This document shows, one piece after another, positions 4,830 through 58,874 of a stretch of DNA of 64,000 bases. Position numbers and translations under genes: made by a program. How positions within the stretch are numbered: position 1 is the first letter of the stretch; every line of letters starts with the position of its first letter. The notes beneath the pieces were generated by a model. It searched no databases. It worked only from the letters and a program-made list of their open reading frames with translations, and had not been told where the DNA came from. Source of the DNA: Rhizobium sp. NLR16a (GTDB taxonomy: Bacteria; Pseudomonadota; Alphaproteobacteria; Rhizobiales; Rhizobiaceae); assembly GCF_017948245.1 (NCBI RefSeq), contig NZ_CP072868.1, positions 186,001 through 250,000 of the forward strand. The letters run 5' to 3'.

Positions 4830-4939
4830 TGCAAAGGGCGAAAGCCTCATATTGTCTGCAGGCATGCTGGAGCTCCGCAGCGGCGCCCGGGTCGAAAACC
4901 CCGACACCGTATCTCCTTCGGAGCTTGTAAGAGGAAACT
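4830..4939 (+). ncRNA. candidate ybhL leader RNA (cis-regulatory 5' leader)
   Basis: The stretch before the Bax-inhibitor (YbhL-like) gene is rich in short hairpins. Examples are GTCG/CGAC around 4891-4906 and CTCC-TTCG-GAG at about 4913-4923, just before the ribosome site AGAGGAA. A structured ybhL leader motif is known from Rhizobiales upstream of this very gene family. I assign it by position and hairpin content, not by a covariance search. The boundaries are approximate. Confidence 0.45.
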
Positions 4940-26977: not shown

Positions 26978-27879
26978 TGCGCCTCGACCTCTCGGGTGCC
27001 GTCGCGCGACCAGAGGCCGGTCGAAGGATCGACCCGGCCCGACCATTCCCATTCCGCCGGTCCCGTCATGATGACGTGATCGTCACGCTCGCGCCATTCG
27101 ATGGAAAGTGTCGCCGGCGGCTTGGCGCTTGCCACGTTGATCGTGACCTTGCGGCCGGTGCGGCCGGTGCGCGCCGCGCTGACGGCGGCCGAACAGGCGG
27201 CCGAACCGCAGGCAAGCGTCAGTCCCGCACCGCGCTCCCATGTGCGCGTCGTCACCGATGTCGGCGAGGTCACCTGCGCCAGCGTGATGTTGGCGCGCTC
27301 GGGAAACATCGGATGGTTTTCGAGTAACGGCCCGAAGCGGGCGAGATCATAGGACATCACGTCCCTGTCCACCCAGAAGATCGCGTGCGGATTGCCCATC
27401 GACATTGCCGAGGGCGAATGCAGCACCGGATTGTCGATCGGGCCGATTTGCAGTTCGATGCGGCTGGTGTCGCGGAATTCTTCCGCCAGCGGAATCCTGT
27501 TCCAATCGAAGACCGGCCGGCCCATATCGACGGAGATCGTCCCGTCCTCGTGCTCGACGGCATTGAGAATGCCGGCGACCGTCTGGAAGGTGAAGGCCTT
27601 CTTTCCGGTCTCGGCGGCAAGCGCCTGCACGACGCAGCGTGTGCCGTTGCCGCAGGCCTGCGCCTTCGAGCCGTCGGAATTCAGGATATCGATGAAGGCA
27701 TCGGTGCCGTCGGCCTTCGGATCATGGATCGCCATGATCTGGTCGAACTCGGTCTCAGGATCGGCATTGAGCGCGACCGCCGCCGCAGGCGTCACCTTGT
27801 CCGTCCGTCCGCGCATGTCGACGACCAGGATCTTGTTGCCAAGCCCATTCATCCTCGCGAATTCGACCGTTGCGTTCAT
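26974..27879 (-). CDS. dapF: diaminopimelate epimerase
   Basis: The 301-residue enzyme interconverts LL- and meso-diaminopimelate for lysine and peptidoglycan synthesis. The two active-site cysteines are in QACGNGTRC (Cys76) and [11 protein letters not shown]. The start [15 protein letters not shown] at 27879 matches the family N terminus. It is the first gene of a minus-strand group with mtaB, ftsY and yciB. Confidence 0.94.
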
Positions 27880-28429: not shown

Positions 28430-28497
28430 GCGCCCAATCCGCGACGAGCCACATGACTCCGAGCCGCCGACCGGGACTTCGAGATCCCGGAGGTCAA

Positions 28498-28534
28498 CAC
28501 CCGACAGCGCGATGCGCCCTCGGGTGCTTTTTGG
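28498..28534 (+). promoter_or_regulatory. terminator-like hairpin in the ffh leader
   Basis: CACCCGA pairs with TCGGGTG (7 bp), and an inner GCGC-GAT-GCGC hairpin extends it. A run of five T follows. It lies between the predicted promoter and the ffh ribosome site, so it could attenuate ffh or end a short RNA of about 100 bases. An upstream hairpin CGGGA/TCCCG lies at about 28471-28490. Confidence 0.6.
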
Positions 28535-53464: not shown

Positions 53465-55114
53465 TCAGTCCAAGGCGCCGGGCGGGGAGGCGCTGGGGTA
53501 ATCCCGATGCGGTTTCCGTACATCTTCGAATTTCAGTTCAAAGCGCGCCAGATATTTGGCAAGGCGATCGGCGTCGTTGCTGCTCTTCTTTTCCAGGCGC
53601 GAATTTGCAAACAGCGCCCGGCCCGCGGCGCTGGCACTGGCATGCTCCCGGCAGGTGCGAAGGACGGCGGCGAGTTGAACGGCGTCGAAACGATCGAGGC
53701 GGGCAGTGGCGTCTTCGCCGAGCAGATCGATCAGGATGTCGTCGGAGGATTGGCGTCCCGATGAGCCGCGCCAGGCGGCCTTCAGGCGTCGGATCTCGTC
53801 GTCGGCGACCTCCACCGTGATTCGGCCTTGAGGCGCGAGCGTTGCCATGCGCGTGACGGAAGCGGACAAGTCGCGGAAATTCGCGCTCCAGAGGGCCTCC
53901 GCGCCGGTAGCAAACGTGAGATAGCGGCTTCGCGCTTCCTTGTTGAAGGTGACGTTCTGCCCTTCACGCTCAAGGAAACGCCGAAGTTCGAAATCAAGAT
54001 TGGGCTCGATATCCTCCCTGCGCTCGCGCAAGGCCGGCAGCTGGAAAGTCCATAGATTGAGCCGGGCAAAGAGATCCTCGCGGAATCGGCCGCGACGGAC
54101 GGCGTCGCCGAGATCGCGATTGGTGCCCGCCAGAAGCTGGAAGTCGGCGGAAACTTCGCGGTCCGCACCGACTGGCAGAAAGCGCTTTTCCTCAATCGCC
54201 CGCAAGCACATGGCCTGTTCATCGAGGCCCAGTTCACCGATCTCGTCGAGAAAGAGCACGCCCTTGTCCGCCGACTTCAGGAGGCCAGGCCGTTCGCCTG
54301 CGGCGCCGGTGAAGGCGCCTTTGACATGGCCGAAAAGCGCCGACATGGCGTGATCGCCGCGGAGCGTTGCGCAGTTAACCTCGACGAAGGGACCGCTGAC
54401 TTTTCGCTCGGCCTTCTTGAGTTCGTAGATCCGCTTGGCAAGCTGGGATTTTCCTGCGCCGGTCGGGCCGGTCAGCAGGACCGGGGCAGTAGAGCGAATG
54501 ACAGCGCGCTCGATCTCGTCGATCATGCGATTGAAGGCGGGATTTCGCGTCGAAATGCCGGATTTCAGAAACGAGGCGGCGTCGGCCTGTTCGGATGCGA
54601 AGCGCTTGGCGATTTCGTCATAGCGCGAGAGATCAAGATCGATGATGCGATGGGTTCCCGCGAAATCCTGTCCCGGCTCGCGCTCGCGCGGCGGAGAAAG
54701 CTGCAGCAACCTGCCGGGAATGATGCGCGCTTCGGTCAGGAGGAACCAGCAGATCTGGGCGACATGGGTGCCGGTGGTGATGTTGACGAGATAGTCTTCG
54801 GCCTCGGGATCGAAACTGTAGTCCCGGGCAAAATCCCTGAGGCTCGTATAGACTTCAGAAAAGTCCCAGGGGTCGCGCAGATTGATGATGCGCTGGCGAA
54901 CCTCCGTCGCGGGCGAAATCGTCTCGATATCCCTGATTACGGTCTTGGCCAGCCAGTCGGAATGATTGTCGTGAATCAGTTCCAGCCGATCGATGAAAAG
55001 ACCGGCCTGTTGGCAAAGGCCGACGTTCGGCCGCCAGCGCGTCCATCGGTCTTCACGCCGGCCCACGTCGAGGGTCGTTCCAAGAATGCTGATGGCGACC
55101 CGGCGCTTCATCAT
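53465..55114 (-). CDS. rtcR: RtcR, CARF-domain sigma-54 activator of RNA repair
   Basis: The 549-residue regulator has an N-terminal CARF-like sensor (about 1-180, with YLVNITTGTHVAQICWFLL). The sigma-54 AAA+ domain has Walker A GPTGAGKS (216-223), the sigma-54-contacting GAFTGA loop (266-271) and Walker B GVLFLDEIGEL (285-295). A C-terminal helical DNA-binding part ends the protein. It activates rsr/rtcB transcription in response to RNA damage signals in enterobacteria. It is divergent from rsr, which has a -24/-12 promoter. Confidence 0.93.
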   Translation of the reverse strand: MMKRRVAISILGTTLDVGRREDRWTRWRPNVGLCQQAGLFIDRLELIHDNHSDWLAKTVIRDIETISPATEVRQRIINLRDPWDFSEVYTSLRDFARDYSFDPEAEDYLVNITTGTHVAQICWFLLTEARIIPGRLLQLSPPREREPGQDFAGTHRIIDLDLSRYDEIAKRFASEQADAASFLKSGISTRNPAFNRMIDEIERAVIRSTAPVLLTGPTGAGKSQLAKRIYELKKAERKVSGPFVEVNCATLRGDHAMSALFGHVKGAFTGAAGERPGLLKSADKGVLFLDEIGELGLDEQAMCLRAIEEKRFLPVGADREVSADFQLLAGTNRDLGDAVRRGRFREDLFARLNLWTFQLPALRERREDIEPNLDFELRRFLEREGQNVTFNKEARSRYLTFATGAEALWSANFRDLSASVTRMATLAPQGRITVEVADDEIRRLKAAWRGSSGRQSSDDILIDLLGEDATARLDRFDAVQLAAVLRTCREHASASAAGRALFANSRLEKKSSNDADRLAKYLARFELKFEDVRKPHRDYPSASPPGALD

Positions 55115-55269: not shown

Positions 55270-55286
55270 TGGCACGCCACTTGAAT
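55270..55286 (+). promoter_or_regulatory. sigma-54 (-24/-12) promoter of the rsr-Y RNA-rtcB operon
   Basis: TGGCACG-CCAC-TTGAAT matches the RpoN consensus closely, preceded by T at the usual place. Transcription would start near 55298, about 25 bases before the rsr ATG. Confidence 0.88.
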
Positions 55287-55321: not shown

Positions 55322-56875
55322 ATGGTGAACAAGGCAATTTTCAAACCCTATTTCGGAAAGCTGCTCGCCGGCACGACGACGACCAACCACGAAGGCGCAG
55401 CAGCCTATGCCCTGTCGCCGCGCGAAGCCCTGGCGCAATATGCCGTTACCGGAACGTTCAGCGACACTTTCTATGCAGATGCAGGAGAGCAGCTCGATGC
55501 CGTGAGGCAGCTTGCGGCGGAGGTCGAGCCAGAATTCCTGGCAAAGCTTGCGATCCATGCGGCGGAGAAAGGCCATATGAAGGACATGCCGGTCATGCTG
55601 CTGGCTATGCTTTCGGGCCTCGAAAGCGATGCCTTTGCGCGGGCTTTTCCGCGTGTCGTGAAGAGCGGCAAGATGCTGCGCGGCTTCGTGCAGGTCATGC
55701 GGTCGGGTGTGACGGGCCGGAAATCGCTCGGGACGCGGCCGAAGAAGATGGTGCAGGCCTGGTTCGACCGGGTAACTACGGAACAGTTCCTGCATGCGAT
55801 GGTCGGCAATGATCCGTCGCTGCCTGATGTGATCCGGATGGTACATCCAAAGCCGCGAGACGCGGAGCGTCAGGCGCTCTACGCATGGGCAGTCGGCAAG
55901 CCGTATGATGTCGCAGCATTGCCGGCTGAGGTAAAAGCGTTCGAAGCGTTCAAGCGGGATAGCAGCTTGCCGCTGCCGCCCGTGCCGTTCCAGATGCTGA
56001 CCTCGCTGGGTCTCAGCAAGGAGCAGTGGTCGGAAATCGCCTTGAAGGGCTCGTGGCAGATGGTGCGCCAGAACCTCAACACCTTTGCCCGAAACGGGGT
56101 GTTCGAGGTGGATAGCATGGCCGAACGGCTTGCTGCGCGGATCGCCGATCCGGAAGCGGTGCGGAAGGCGCGCGTCTTCCCCTACCAGTTGATGGTCGCG
56201 TGGCATATGGCGAACCAGTCGGTTCCGGCTGTCGTTGCGGATGCTCTGCAGGATGCGATGGAGGTGGCAATCTCCAGCGTGCCGACGATCGGCGGCAATG
56301 TCGTGGTCTGCCCGGATGTCTCCGGCTCCATGTCTTCCCCCGTCACCGGTTACCGGAAGGGCGCGACATCAGCCGTCCGCTGCATCGATGTCGCAGCACT
56401 CGTGGCTGCGTCGTTCCTGCGCCGCAACCGGCAGACGCGTATCATCCCCTTCGAACAGGACGTCGTGAACGTCCAGCTGAACGGGCGCGACAGCGTGATG
56501 ACCAACGCGGCGAAGCTCGCGGCGGTGGGCGGCGGCGGAACGAACTGTTCTGCACCGCTGCGGCTGCTCGCAAAGGAGAAGGCGGCGGTGGACCTCGTGC
56601 TCTTCGTCTCGGACAACCAGTCCTGGATGGATGCGCGGGGGCACGGCCAGGCGACAGGGATGATGGTCGAATGGGCGCGGCTCAAGAGGCTGAACCCGGC
56701 TGCAAAGCTGGTCTGCCTCGACATCCAGCCTTACGTCCAGACGCCGGCCAAGGCAGAGGACGTGCTGAACATCGGCGGCTTCTCGGATGGCGTCTACGGA
56801 GCCATCACCAGTTTCGCAGCCGGCAAGTCCGGTTCGGGCGATTGGGTTCGCAGGATCGAGGCGACTGATCTTTGA
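55322..56875 (+). CDS. rsr: Rsr, bacterial Ro60 (TROVE domain) RNA-binding protein
   Basis: The 517-residue orthologue of the Ro autoantigen has a TROVE HEAT-like ring (about 15-310), with AQYAVTGTFSDTFYADAGEQLDAV and SGRKS-type TGRKSLGTRPKKMVQAWF. A von Willebrand A domain with the MIDAS motif DVSGSMS (332-338) follows. Ro binds the ends of misfolded RNAs in its cavity and Y RNAs on its outer surface. Start at 55322 (MVNKAIFKPYFGKLLAG). It is followed directly by four Y RNA-like units and rtcB. Confidence 0.93.
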   Translation: MVNKAIFKPYFGKLLAGTTTTNHEGAAAYALSPREALAQYAVTGTFSDTFYADAGEQLDAVRQLAAEVEPEFLAKLAIHAAEKGHMKDMPVMLLAMLSGLESDAFARAFPRVVKSGKMLRGFVQVMRSGVTGRKSLGTRPKKMVQAWFDRVTTEQFLHAMVGNDPSLPDVIRMVHPKPRDAERQALYAWAVGKPYDVAALPAEVKAFEAFKRDSSLPLPPVPFQMLTSLGLSKEQWSEIALKGSWQMVRQNLNTFARNGVFEVDSMAERLAARIADPEAVRKARVFPYQLMVAWHMANQSVPAVVADALQDAMEVAISSVPTIGGNVVVCPDVSGSMSSPVTGYRKGATSAVRCIDVAALVAASFLRRNRQTRIIPFEQDVVNVQLNGRDSVMTNAAKLAAVGGGGTNCSAPLRLLAKEKAAVDLVLFVSDNQSWMDARGHGQATGMMVEWARLKRLNPAAKLVCLDIQPYVQTPAKAEDVLNIGGFSDGVYGAITSFAAGKSGSGDWVRRIEATDL

Positions 56876-56883
56876 AATTGCTT

Positions 56884-56905
56884 CGCGCCGCCAGTGAACG
56901 GCGCG
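56884..56905 (+). other. hairpin between rsr stop and first Y RNA
   Basis: CGCGCCG pairs perfectly with CGGCGCG (7 bp, loop CCAGTGAA). It has no T run, so it is not an ordinary terminator. It may protect the rsr mRNA 3' end or mark a processing point before the Y RNAs. Confidence 0.55.
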
Positions 56906-56910
56906 AGGCA

Positions 56911-57046
56911 CCGTGATGAATGCCGGATGGAACTACAGACTGTCACTCTCCAGGTCGCGGGTTCGAATCCCGTCGGGTCCCCCAAAAAACAAGGACTCGT
57001 AGCTCAGCGGATAGAGCGGGTGTTCCACCATATCTCGTCGTCGCGG
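56911..57046 (+). ncRNA. Y RNA-like RNA 1 with permuted tRNA-like domain (YrlA type)
   Basis: The 5' strand holds GATGA-ATGCC-GGATGGAAC and the 3' strand GTTCC-A-CC-ATATC-TCGTC, giving a Y stem with a 5x5 internal loop. Inside it lie, in order: a hairpin GACTG/CAGGTC (56938-56956), a T arm GCGGG-TTCGAAT-CCCGT (56957-56973), then acceptor strand CGGGTCC (56974-56980), a loop CCCAAAAAACAA, and acceptor strand GGACTCG (56993-56999), which pairs at all seven positions. Next come TA and a D arm GCTC-AGCGGATA-GAGC (57002-57017). This is a circularly permuted tRNA elbow closed at the acceptor end. YrlA RNAs beside rsr genes are known to mimic tRNA this way. Confidence 0.8.
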
Positions 57047-57070
57047 ACCAATGGAATGACGTACAAAACA

Positions 57071-57194
57071 TATGGCGAATGCCGGGGAAACTACATCGGT
57101 AACCCGAAAGGGCGCGGGTTCAAGGCCCGCCTTGCCGCCCGAATCCGAGAGGGAGGAGGATGCGCAAGATGTTTCCTCAAGACTTGTCGCCATG
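57071..57194 (+). ncRNA. Y RNA-like RNA 2 (T arm only)
   Basis: The outer stem is TATGGCGA (57071-57078) with TCGCCATG (57187-57194), 8 pairs. An internal loop ATGCC follows on the 5' side, then the inner stem GGAAAC (57086-57091) with GTTTCC (57171-57176). The domain contains a T arm GCGGG-TTCAAGG-CCCGC (57114-57130). An acceptor-like stem CTTG(C)CGC/GCGCAAG (57131-57138 with 57162-57168) closes a 23-base loop. There is no D arm. The inner stem differs from unit 1 on both strands, keeping pairing. Confidence 0.68.
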
Positions 57195-57201
57195 ACCGAA
57201 A

Positions 57202-57336
57202 TTGCAGCGGCGAATGCCGGACGGAACTACAGCCTCCGTGTTGAGGTGGCCCGACCGGTTCGACTCCGGTCCTTGGCGGCGCTCTCTGGCACGGGCGGGG
57301 CCACGCAGGTTTCGTCCACCTTTGTCGCCGCTGCAA
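57202..57336 (+). ncRNA. Y RNA-like RNA 3 (T arm only)
   Basis: The outer stem is a perfect 12-bp helix, TTGCAGCGGCGA (57202-57213) with TCGCCGCTGCAA (57325-57336). The internal loop ATGCC follows, then the inner 9-bp stem GGACGGAAC (57219-57227) with GTTTCGTCC (57309-57317). Inside are a small hairpin CCTC-CGTGTT-GAGG (57233-57246), a T arm ACCGG-TTCGACT-CCGGT (57254-57270) and a weak acceptor-like stem CTTGGC/GCCACG (one mismatch). There is no D arm. The stems are the best supported of the four. Confidence 0.7.
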
Positions 57337-57342
57337 AAATAT

Positions 57343-57408
57343 CCGGTGAATGCCGGCACGACGACAGGAAAGAAGGTCTCCGGGAAATCGTCGCCCAGGC
57401 GAGACCCG
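57343..57408 (+). ncRNA. Y RNA-like RNA 4, minimal stem-loop without tRNA-like domain
   Basis: It contains the conserved GGTGAATGCCGG and an inner stem GG(CA)CGACGA (57355-57364) with TCGTCGCC (57388-57395), around a 23-base loop without a T arm. An outer stem is only weakly supported (GGT/ACC). It could be a small YrlB-like RNA, a decayed copy, or part of the rtcB leader: the rtcB ATG is 42 bases further. Confidence 0.45.
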
Positions 57409-57449
57409 AAACGCAACGAAGAAGAAGGACTGCAGACGCAGAAGAGAAG

Positions 57450-58874
57450 ATGACCGAGATCATGAGCGGACAGGATCTGATCGACGCAGGCATGAGCCAG
57501 GGCAAGTGGTTTCGCCCGGCTCTCGACGCGGCCAACAGGATTTTGAGCCAAGGCGGTTCGGCCGCAGAGGCCCTCGAAGCGGCAAAAGCCTTTCAACCGG
57601 CGCCGACGCTCGCCTTGAGGGCGGATAACGATATCGAGATCTATTCCAATATCCGCGCCGATAACCCCTTCGAGCAGGACAATGTCGAGAAGGTCAACGC
57701 GACGATGCGGGCGCTTGCACGCACGCCGGTCATCCGGGCTGCGGCAATCATGCCGGATGCTTGCCCGGCCGGGCCGATCGGCACCATTCCGGTTGGCGGC
57801 GTCGTGGCATCGGAGGCGATCCATCCGGGCATGCACTCGGCTGACATCTGCTGCTCCATGGCGATCTCGATCTTCCCGGACGTCGATCCGAAATCGCTTC
57901 TCGATGCGGTGCATGCAGTGACGCATTTCGGTCCCGGGGGCCGCCCGCGCGGTGCGCAGATCAAGCCTTCCGAAGCGACGCTATCTGCCTTCCAGCAGAA
58001 CCCGTTTCTGCGCGACGGAGCGCTGAGCGTCGGCATCGAACATTTCGGCACGCAGGGCGACGGCAACCACTTCGCCTATGTCGGAACGATGAGATCGACC
58101 GGCGAGACCGCACTCGTCACCCATCATGGGTCGCGTGCGCCGGGTGCCCGGCTCTACGACAAGGGCATGAAGGCCGCGAACCGCTTCCGCGAGCAGATCT
58201 CGCCGGAAACCCTGCGGGACAATGCATGGATTCCCGCCGACACCGAAGAGGGCGACCTCTACTGGTCGGCTCTGCAGACCATCCGGCAGTGGACGAGGGA
58301 AAACCACTATATCGTCCATGACATGGCGGCAGAGGCACTCTCGGCGAAGGCGGCCGATCGTTTCTGGAACGAGCACAATTTCGTTTTCCGGAAATCGGAC
58401 GGCCTCTTCTATCACGGCAAGGGAGCGACGCCGGCCTTCGACAAATGGGCCGAGGATGCGACCGATCTGACGATCATTCCGCTCAACATGGCGGAACCGA
58501 TCCTGATCGTCCGCGGCTCCAACGCCGCCCATGGCCTCGGATTCTCGCCGCATGGCGCCGGCCGTAATTTTTCGCGCAGCGCCCATATGCGGCGCCTGGC
58601 GGAAGAATATGGCGCCGATGCCCGCGGCCTGAGCCCGAACAATCTGGCGGAGATCCTGGAAAAGGAGACCGCGGGCCTGGACGTTCGCTTCTTCTCGGGC
58701 TTTGCCGACGCCTCGGAACTGCCGAGTGCCTACAAGTCCGCCGCCAACGTGCGTGCCCAGATCGAGCATTACGGTCTGGCCGAGGTGGTCGACGAGGTCA
58801 TTCCGTATGGAAGCATCATGGCCGGCGACTGGCAGAAGGATGCACCCTGGCGTCGCAAACGGGAACGTCGCTGA
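57450..58874 (+). CDS. rtcB: RNA-splicing ligase RtcB
   Basis: The 474-residue GTP-dependent ligase joins 2',3'-cyclic phosphate (or 3'-phosphate) to 5'-OH RNA ends. Metal and guanylate residues are seen in HSADICCSM (Asp132, Cys134/135), HFGTQGDGNHF (His near 198 and 207), HHGSR (near 225) and SPHGAGRNFSR. The usual MPDVH motif reads MPDACPAGP at 101-109, so this is a divergent member. Start at 57450 (MTEIMSGQDLID); 57462 is possible. No rtcA cyclase gene is present nearby. Confidence 0.9.
   Translation: MTEIMSGQDLIDAGMSQGKWFRPALDAANRILSQGGSAAEALEAAKAFQPAPTLALRADNDIEIYSNIRADNPFEQDNVEKVNATMRALARTPVIRAAAIMPDACPAGPIGTIPVGGVVASEAIHPGMHSADICCSMAISIFPDVDPKSLLDAVHAVTHFGPGGRPRGAQIKPSEATLSAFQQNPFLRDGALSVGIEHFGTQGDGNHFAYVGTMRSTGETALVTHHGSRAPGARLYDKGMKAANRFREQISPETLRDNAWIPADTEEGDLYWSALQTIRQWTRENHYIVHDMAAEALSAKAADRFWNEHNFVFRKSDGLFYHGKGATPAFDKWAEDATDLTIIPLNMAEPILIVRGSNAAHGLGFSPHGAGRNFSRSAHMRRLAEEYGADARGLSPNNLAEILEKETAGLDVRFFSGFADASELPSAYKSAANVRAQIEHYGLAEVVDEVIPYGSIMAGDWQKDAPWRRKRERR

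Follow-up and report, generated by a model that had tools for sequence, protein, structure and literature searches.

The window, i.e., the whole stretch of 64,000 nucleotides of DNA analysed here, is carried by a 489-kb contig (C4) of a 6.58-Mb genome; the genes of a Ro60 ortholog (rsr) and of an RNA ligase (rtcB) flank a series of Y RNA-like units in it. The features are listed below, with bit scores from the Rfam YrlA model and from R1, a covariance model built from 33 type D units, all of other loci and none from the window.

53465..55114, − strand: rtcR, sigma-54-dependent activator with an RtcR sensor domain (NCBIfam NF038308, 815.8 bits for a cut-off of 650; Pfam RtcR, 265 bits)
55270..55286, + strand: predicted sigma-54 type −24/−12 promoter, TGGCAC-N5-TTGAAT, 5' of rsr (pattern match)
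55322..56875, + strand: rsr, Ro60 ortholog, TROVE and vWA (Pfam PF25045, 59 bits; PF05731, 28.3 bits)
56879..56910, + strand: 12-bp hairpin between the rsr stop and the first unit, without a T tract
56910..57047, + strand: Y unit 1, type A (Rfam YrlA 56.1 bits; R1 42.5 bits)
57069..57196, + strand: Y unit 2, type B (Rfam YrlA 42.4 bits; R1 49.7 bits)
57204..57334, + strand: Y unit 3, type C (Rfam YrlA 24.0 bits; R1 28.5 bits)
57340..57412, + strand: remnant joining the 5' half of one type D unit to the 3' end of one type E unit (three-way alignment of the window and two relatives; R1 19.3 bits, E 0.0022 in the window)
57450..58874, + strand: rtcB, RNA ligase (Pfam PF01139, 103 bits)

With rtcR divergent from the rsr-rtcB operon and followed by the sigma-54 site, rsr, the units and rtcB, the gene order is that of known RtcR-controlled RNA repair operons. 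The window Rsr matches the Rsr of D. radiodurans (2NVO, E 5.4e-20) as well as PDB entries 9l5y and 9kop, named TROVE domain-containing protein (E 1.4e-16); it scores 81 bits with the NCBIfam Rsr model, under the cut-off of 900 of that model. The sigma-54 pattern has 2 matches in the window for 0.09 expected, and with a somewhat looser pattern 44 of 58 distinct related loci have a site 5' of rsr. The genome has a PNPase gene, and no match to RtcA (PF01137) was found in the whole genome at E ≤ 0.001, a search in which E. coli and four archaeal controls were positive. The rsr gene is present in 29 of 148 genomes of the genus, the window's genome included, and similar loci are carried by rhizobial plasmids (of 50 plasmid records that match, 44 span 80% of the query or more).

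Several other observations were made around the array. The 12-bp hairpin that follows rsr abuts unit 1 and is perhaps an mRNA end or a processing signal. At the other end, the segment 5' of rtcB (57424-57449) reads GAAGGACTGC-AGAC-GCAG, forms a small hairpin and looks nearly unchanged in most Rhizobiaceae gaps compared. A gene annotated as DNA transposition lies inside the rsr-rtcB gap of Rhizobium sp. Pop5 (L090, 4226-5413). Elsewhere in the window, Rfam matches above gathering to the ybhL leader and the ffh sRNA are found at 4859-4928 and 28483-28534.

The preliminary description had proposed four tandem Y RNA-like units, each with a GAATGCCGG motif followed by a GGAAC-like strand, with exact partner strands in three of them. 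The motif is indeed present at 56918, 57077, 57212 and 57348; one more copy lies at 27567, which makes 5 in the window for 1.6 expected, a number reached in 0 of 100 shuffles. All the partner strands named are there, two of them exact (TTGCAGCGGCGA/TCGCCGCTGCAA and GGAAAC/GTTTCC) and two with one G-U each (TATGGCGA/TCGCCATG and GGACGGAAC/GTTTCGTCC); they come from units 2 and 3 only, and unit 1 pairs as well in its predicted fold (CCGTGATGA with TCGTCGCGG). Units 1 to 3, encoded next to rsr and on the same strand, each hold the Rsr handle, that is, a lower stem, a GAAUGC bulge and an inner helix. Counting outer plus inner pairs, their handles score 15, 16 and 22, to be compared with a control in which the 5' strands were kept and the remainder of the gap was letter-shuffled: a score of at least 15 was reached in 55/4200 cases and a score of at least 22 in 0/4200.

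Only in the head of unit 1 were D, T and acceptor arms recognised together: it joins a T arm, an acceptor-like arm and a D arm, with N-CCA after the acceptor strand, and can be described as a tRNA permuted at the anticodon arm. The heads of the other two units are partial; unit 2 has a short hairpin, a T arm and a further hairpin, with no D arm recognised, and unit 3 a T arm plus a D-arm-like hairpin inside a helix, with no acceptor arm recognised.

A covariance model and an Rfam search had been suggested as a check, and both find the array. R1 recovers the three units and the remnant in the 64-kb window (next match, E 0.034) and, over the whole genome at E ≤ 1, these four plus one tRNA-Arg(CCT) gene. 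The Rfam YrlA model matches 56913-57047, 57072-57196 and 57207-57334, with E values of 8e-12, 8e-8 and 0.016 in a 1-kb search. As all three matches score below gathering (69 bits), the window units are called here YrlA-like and not YrlA; a default Rfam scan shows nothing at the array. Candidate units elsewhere in the genome were rejected: each search gave one extra weak match, and these fall on tRNA genes (a tandem tRNA-Asp pair and tRNA-Arg(CCT)). Single-sequence folding was strong for unit 3 (z −4.66) and moderate for unit 2 (z −2.11); unit 1 (−0.64) and the fourth motif (−0.60) were not significant versus shuffles, and what argues for unit 1 is its Rfam and R1 matches together with the covariation seen in relatives.

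The fourth copy did not keep the status of a unit. It has no GGAAC strand after the motif, the pairing script found no partner for it, and its alignment to R1, at the score listed above, displays many mispairs and at most a shortened stem in place of the Rsr handle. At this place, R. aethiopicum has two more units. In the alignment with the relative L034, the window sequence stops within the type D unit and picks up again close to where the type E unit ends, leaving 73 nt; the rsr-rtcB gaps measure 760 nt in L034 and 577 nt in the window, a difference of 183. Judging from these alignments, the fourth motif is a deletion scar, with about 183 nt missing in the window from two units that relatives still hold, and the preliminary count of four stands for three intact units and a remnant in the rsr-rtcB operon. 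In a second relative, L014, the same region is missing with other break points. An Rsr tree of 58 rows places the window together with L013 and L014 (99/82) and L006 outside this group (100/99). L034, a twin of L006, has five R1 matches, and L066, a twin of L013, has five units by eye; a stricter pairing script called four units in each of L006 and L013. Two separate losses, one in the window and one in L014, are thus likely; they are not proven, because the support for pairing L013 with L014 (92/69) is under the tree's own mark.

We then turn to covariation across relatives. Units entered the alignments only with a handle found by script, and types were named by their T-loop and D-arm letters; selection, therefore, accounts in part for the pairing percentages of the handle and for the lack of variation in the D stem of type D. 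Near-identical units were thinned from 41 to 25 for type A, from 46 to 27 for type C (26 used) and from 36 to 34 for type D (33 used). The Uliginosibacterium unit was left out of the type D set, as was, earlier, one L072 type D call; B1 was thinned from 30 to 29, and 16 sequences of one subtype were chosen by hand. Structures were obtained with RNAalifold on the same alignments as those tested, which somewhat favours them, and one predicted 4-pair helix of type A was left out.

For type A (window unit 1; 25 sequences), 99.0% of the cells are paired and 12 of 33 pairs have two-sided changes, with 32 two-sided cells versus 7.2 after shuffling. The corresponding figures are 96.9%, 10 of 26 pairs and 21 versus 5.4 cells for type B (window unit 2; 16 sequences); 98.4%, 9 of 37 pairs and 31 versus 8.2 cells for type C (window unit 3; 26 sequences); and 97.7%, 18 of 36 pairs and 63 versus 12.2 cells for type D, which is found in relatives only (33 sequences). 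The two-sided cell counts were reached in 0/500 shuffles for each type; slid partners pair in 34-57% of the cells versus 97-99% for the true ones. One of five measures is weaker for type C (further pair types, 10/500 shuffles). Pairing played no part in the selection of the T-arm, acceptor-arm and anticodon-side helices. Among them, 7/8 acceptor-arm pairs, 3/5 T-arm pairs and 2/3 pairs of the hairpin in the anticodon place vary in type D, while 4/7 acceptor pairs of type A and 2/8 T-arm pairs of type B vary in pairs. That pairing is kept while bases change, as first described in the window, is supported for types A to C, in the window and in related loci.

Is the expansion peculiar to this operon? 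It is not. R1 was run on 31 sources (27 of 52 loci, three plasmid loci and the window), hand-picked to spread over lineages and not random, and gave 128 matches at E ≤ 0.05, 126 of which lie 3' of rsr on the rsr strand by our own tally. There are 2 to 8 matches per source, with three or more in 30/31 and eight in Rhizobium sp. BK376 (L037); part of the matches may be remnants, and the loci that went into R1 give type D matches by construction. On 69 distinct gaps, the pairing script called 3 units in 21, 4 in 19, 5 in 17, 6 in 5, 7 in one and fewer than 3 in 6; motifs scoring at least 14 amounted to 268/420 versus 90/4200 shuffled, the other 152/420 being without a partner at that score. A raw count of GAATGC is unusable as a unit count, as type E units contain an internal GGAATGC. 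Multi-unit arrays are, thus, usual in this Rsr group.

Among six relatives scanned, four units reach or exceed the Rfam YrlA gathering score, with 92.2, 84.8, 74.8 and 69 bits: one each in L087 and L078 and two in L074. Out of 398 genomes of the phylum, 63 have an R1 match at E ≤ 0.001, a figure not taken here as a distribution, many weak matches being possibly tRNA genes. No description of Y RNA arrays in rhizobia was found in the open-licence literature searched, and multi-Y-RNA loci may already be in print.

Copy number also varies among strains of one species, a possibility raised in the preliminary description. Of 16 R. phaseoli plasmid records (15 so named plus CIAT 652, deposited as R. 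etli and counted here with R. phaseoli), 8 were fetched. Strains Bra5, R620, N161 and N261 have three units in a gap of 543-546 nt; R744, N831 and CIAT 652 have five in 781-782 nt, and four were called in the 778 nt of N841. The two extra units of the five-unit strains correspond to the spans of D and E.

One Rsr-type stem is common to the units, and the tRNA-like heads that it bears differ. In the type A head, the handle takes the place of the anticodon arm next to the T arm, the acceptor-like arm and the D arm; this order is the circular permutation reported for bacterial Y RNA (PMC11472068, accessible text). N-CCA follows the 7-nt acceptor strand in 18/25 type A sequences, the window's included. 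When compared with 27 distinct tRNAs (32 loci read, 45 tRNA matches), the 5' piece of the window's type A is closest to tRNA-Arg species (23/25 letters for the best two) and the 3' piece to Arg-CCG, while Asp and Arg-CCT each match one letter fewer. In the window's genome, the Rfam YrlA model also scores 25.1 bits over the point where two tRNA-Asp genes meet in tandem (L003, G000:C1:2319787-2319903). Both the tRNA-Arg likeness and this YrlA match would fit an origin of type A at a junction of tandem tRNA genes.

Type B places its T arm between hairpins, and type C holds its T arm and D-arm-like hairpin within one helix. The handle of type D, no longer present in the window, opens into the D-loop, so that its head is permuted at that loop; its sequence reads, in order, CAGG..TAGAGC, hairpin, AGGTC, T arm, capped acceptor-like arm, GTAGCTCAG. 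Once put back in tRNA order, type D sequences are called tRNA by ARAGORN in 12/33 cases with their own hairpin and in 30/33 with a grafted anticodon arm, versus 0/33 unrearranged and 0/330 piece-shuffled. Beyond Rhizobiaceae, type D was called in Hyphomicrobiaceae (L071, L082), in Pseudogemmobacter (L073) and in a Gemmobacter bin (L078); it was also called, with weaker likeness, in Uliginosibacterium (L074). No T-loop was found in the 11 type E units collected. No description of a D-loop-permuted Y RNA was found in the open-licence literature searched, and this or other permutations may already be in print.

We consider it probable that the window array encodes Y RNAs induced by RtcR and sigma-54 that tether Rsr, within an operon switched on by RNA damage. 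RtcR would sense damaged tRNA and turn on the sigma-54 promoter 5' of rsr, giving a single transcript with rsr, the Y array and rtcB; the array might conceivably then be cut or trimmed to separate Y RNAs. Their common lower stem (an outer helix ending in GA, a bulge AAUGC opposite about 8 nt and an inner helix) would dock on the Rsr ring, and the differing tRNA-like heads would tether partners such as PNPase and gate entry to the ring. Several heads would provide several adaptors for one Rsr; a division of labour between heads is a proposal of ours.

The sequence itself shows the units with their common stem, conserved structures and varying arrays, and the genes around them; induction, Rsr binding and PNPase tethering are carried over from published work on Salmonella and Deinococcus. 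According to the accessible sections of PMC7790460 and PMC9879122, tRNA fragments activate the Salmonella rsr-yrlBA-rtcBA operon through RtcR and its sigma-54 promoter; according to those of PMC8394870 and PMC4726728, Y RNA ties Rsr to PNPase in Deinococcus. As RtcR, a sigma-54 site, Rsr, RtcB and PNPase are all present here, induction by damaged tRNA and binding of Rsr through the handle are likely. Since no RtcA match was found, the induction, the signal or the making of the signal may differ from those of Salmonella. Against our explanation, the window scores lie below Rfam gathering, unit 1 is no better folded than shuffles, and units 2 and 3 are devoid of parts of the tRNA-like domain.

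Like YrlA (Rfam RF02553; Salmonella and others), the units adjoin rsr and have a handle with a GAAUGC bulge, and the T, acceptor and D arms of unit 1 follow the permuted order of YrlA, as given in the text available of PMC8394870 and PMC11472068. Unlike the YrlA and YrlB pair, the window has three intact units and a remnant, with the lower scores and partial heads already mentioned, and in the arrays of relatives one head design is permuted at the D-loop and another has no T arm. The order of divergent rtcR, rsr, Y RNAs and rtcB and the sigma-54-type site are shared with the Salmonella rsr-yrlBA-rtcBA operon (PMC9879122, accessible text), whereas the window's genome has no rtcA match and its lineage more Y units. 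The Deinococcus Y RNA and RYPER are approached through the Rsr relative 2NVO and the PNPase gene; here, in contrast, the operon comprises RtcB, RtcR and an array of units. Finally, the heads read as tRNA pieces in rotated order, as in circularly permuted tRNA-like RNAs, with the difference that a single kind of handle bears two rotations, one at the anticodon arm (type A) and one inside the D-loop (type D, relatives only).

The array could, instead, be a structured, tRNA-like untranslated region of the rsr-rtcB mRNA, acting on stability, processing or control of rtcB translation without free Y RNAs. The units do lie within one operon, a simple consensus scan of the rsr-rtcB gap found neither a sigma-70-like promoter nor a terminator, rsr is followed by a hairpin of 7 bp or more in 53/60 distinct gaps, and the segment before rtcB looks alike in the 13 gaps compared that reach rtcB closely. 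However, YrlA is a known free RNA whose handle recurs in every unit, and the number of units goes from 3 to 5 within a species and from 2 to 8 overall; we find this alternative unlikely. We would put no more faith in units acting as decoys, whose tRNA-like heads would compete for anticodon nucleases or tRNA-modifying enzymes, with arrays expanding for dose or variety. Competitive inhibition by YrlA was proposed by the authors of the Salmonella study (PMC7790460, accessible text), and T-loop letters are kept in the heads, along with D-loop letters in types A and D. An anticodon-nuclease decoy would, however, be expected to keep the anticodon arm; in types A and D, the handle or a variable hairpin stands in its place, and the part common to all types is the handle.

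Slightly more doubtful still is that the units are mostly neutral tandem duplicates drifting in number, with the first, fully tRNA-like unit alone being functional. The same region was lost in the window and in a sister lineage with different break points, and unit number differs between strains, as such drift would have it; yet the structures of types B, C and D are kept through two-sided changes across genera, and a type C unit was called in 47/60 distinct gaps. As for an N-terminal coding extension of RtcB, its frame is open back to 57072 (600 codons, staying open 390 nt 5' of the rtcB start), but it is not kept in relatives (15 to 687 nt open in 59 other distinct gaps, less than 200 nt in 49, distant rtcB starts being estimated only), and we rejected this extension as highly improbable.

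Returning to Y RNAs that tether Rsr, a wider reading is plausible, though somewhat less likely than not: bacterial Rsr might be served by an interchangeable set of adaptors, with one conserved handle and at least five head designs gained and lost as cassettes among strains, and the type A head, in most sequences still with N-CCA between its acceptor strands, would be the fossil of a place where two Arg-like tRNA genes adjoined in tandem. The designs would comprise tRNA mimics rotated at the anticodon arm or at the D-loop, an elbow of T and D arms that lacks the acceptor arm, and a head devoid of a T arm. Arrays that combine a single handle with several heads and that differ within a species would offer a direct test of why Ro60 needs Y RNAs that imitate tRNA, and bacterial Ro60 may have a set of RNA adaptors at its disposal instead of one or two. 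For the origin of tRNA mimics, too, the rotated heads are relevant; the fossil of a tandem tRNA junction, if true, would explain how permuted tRNA mimics arise.
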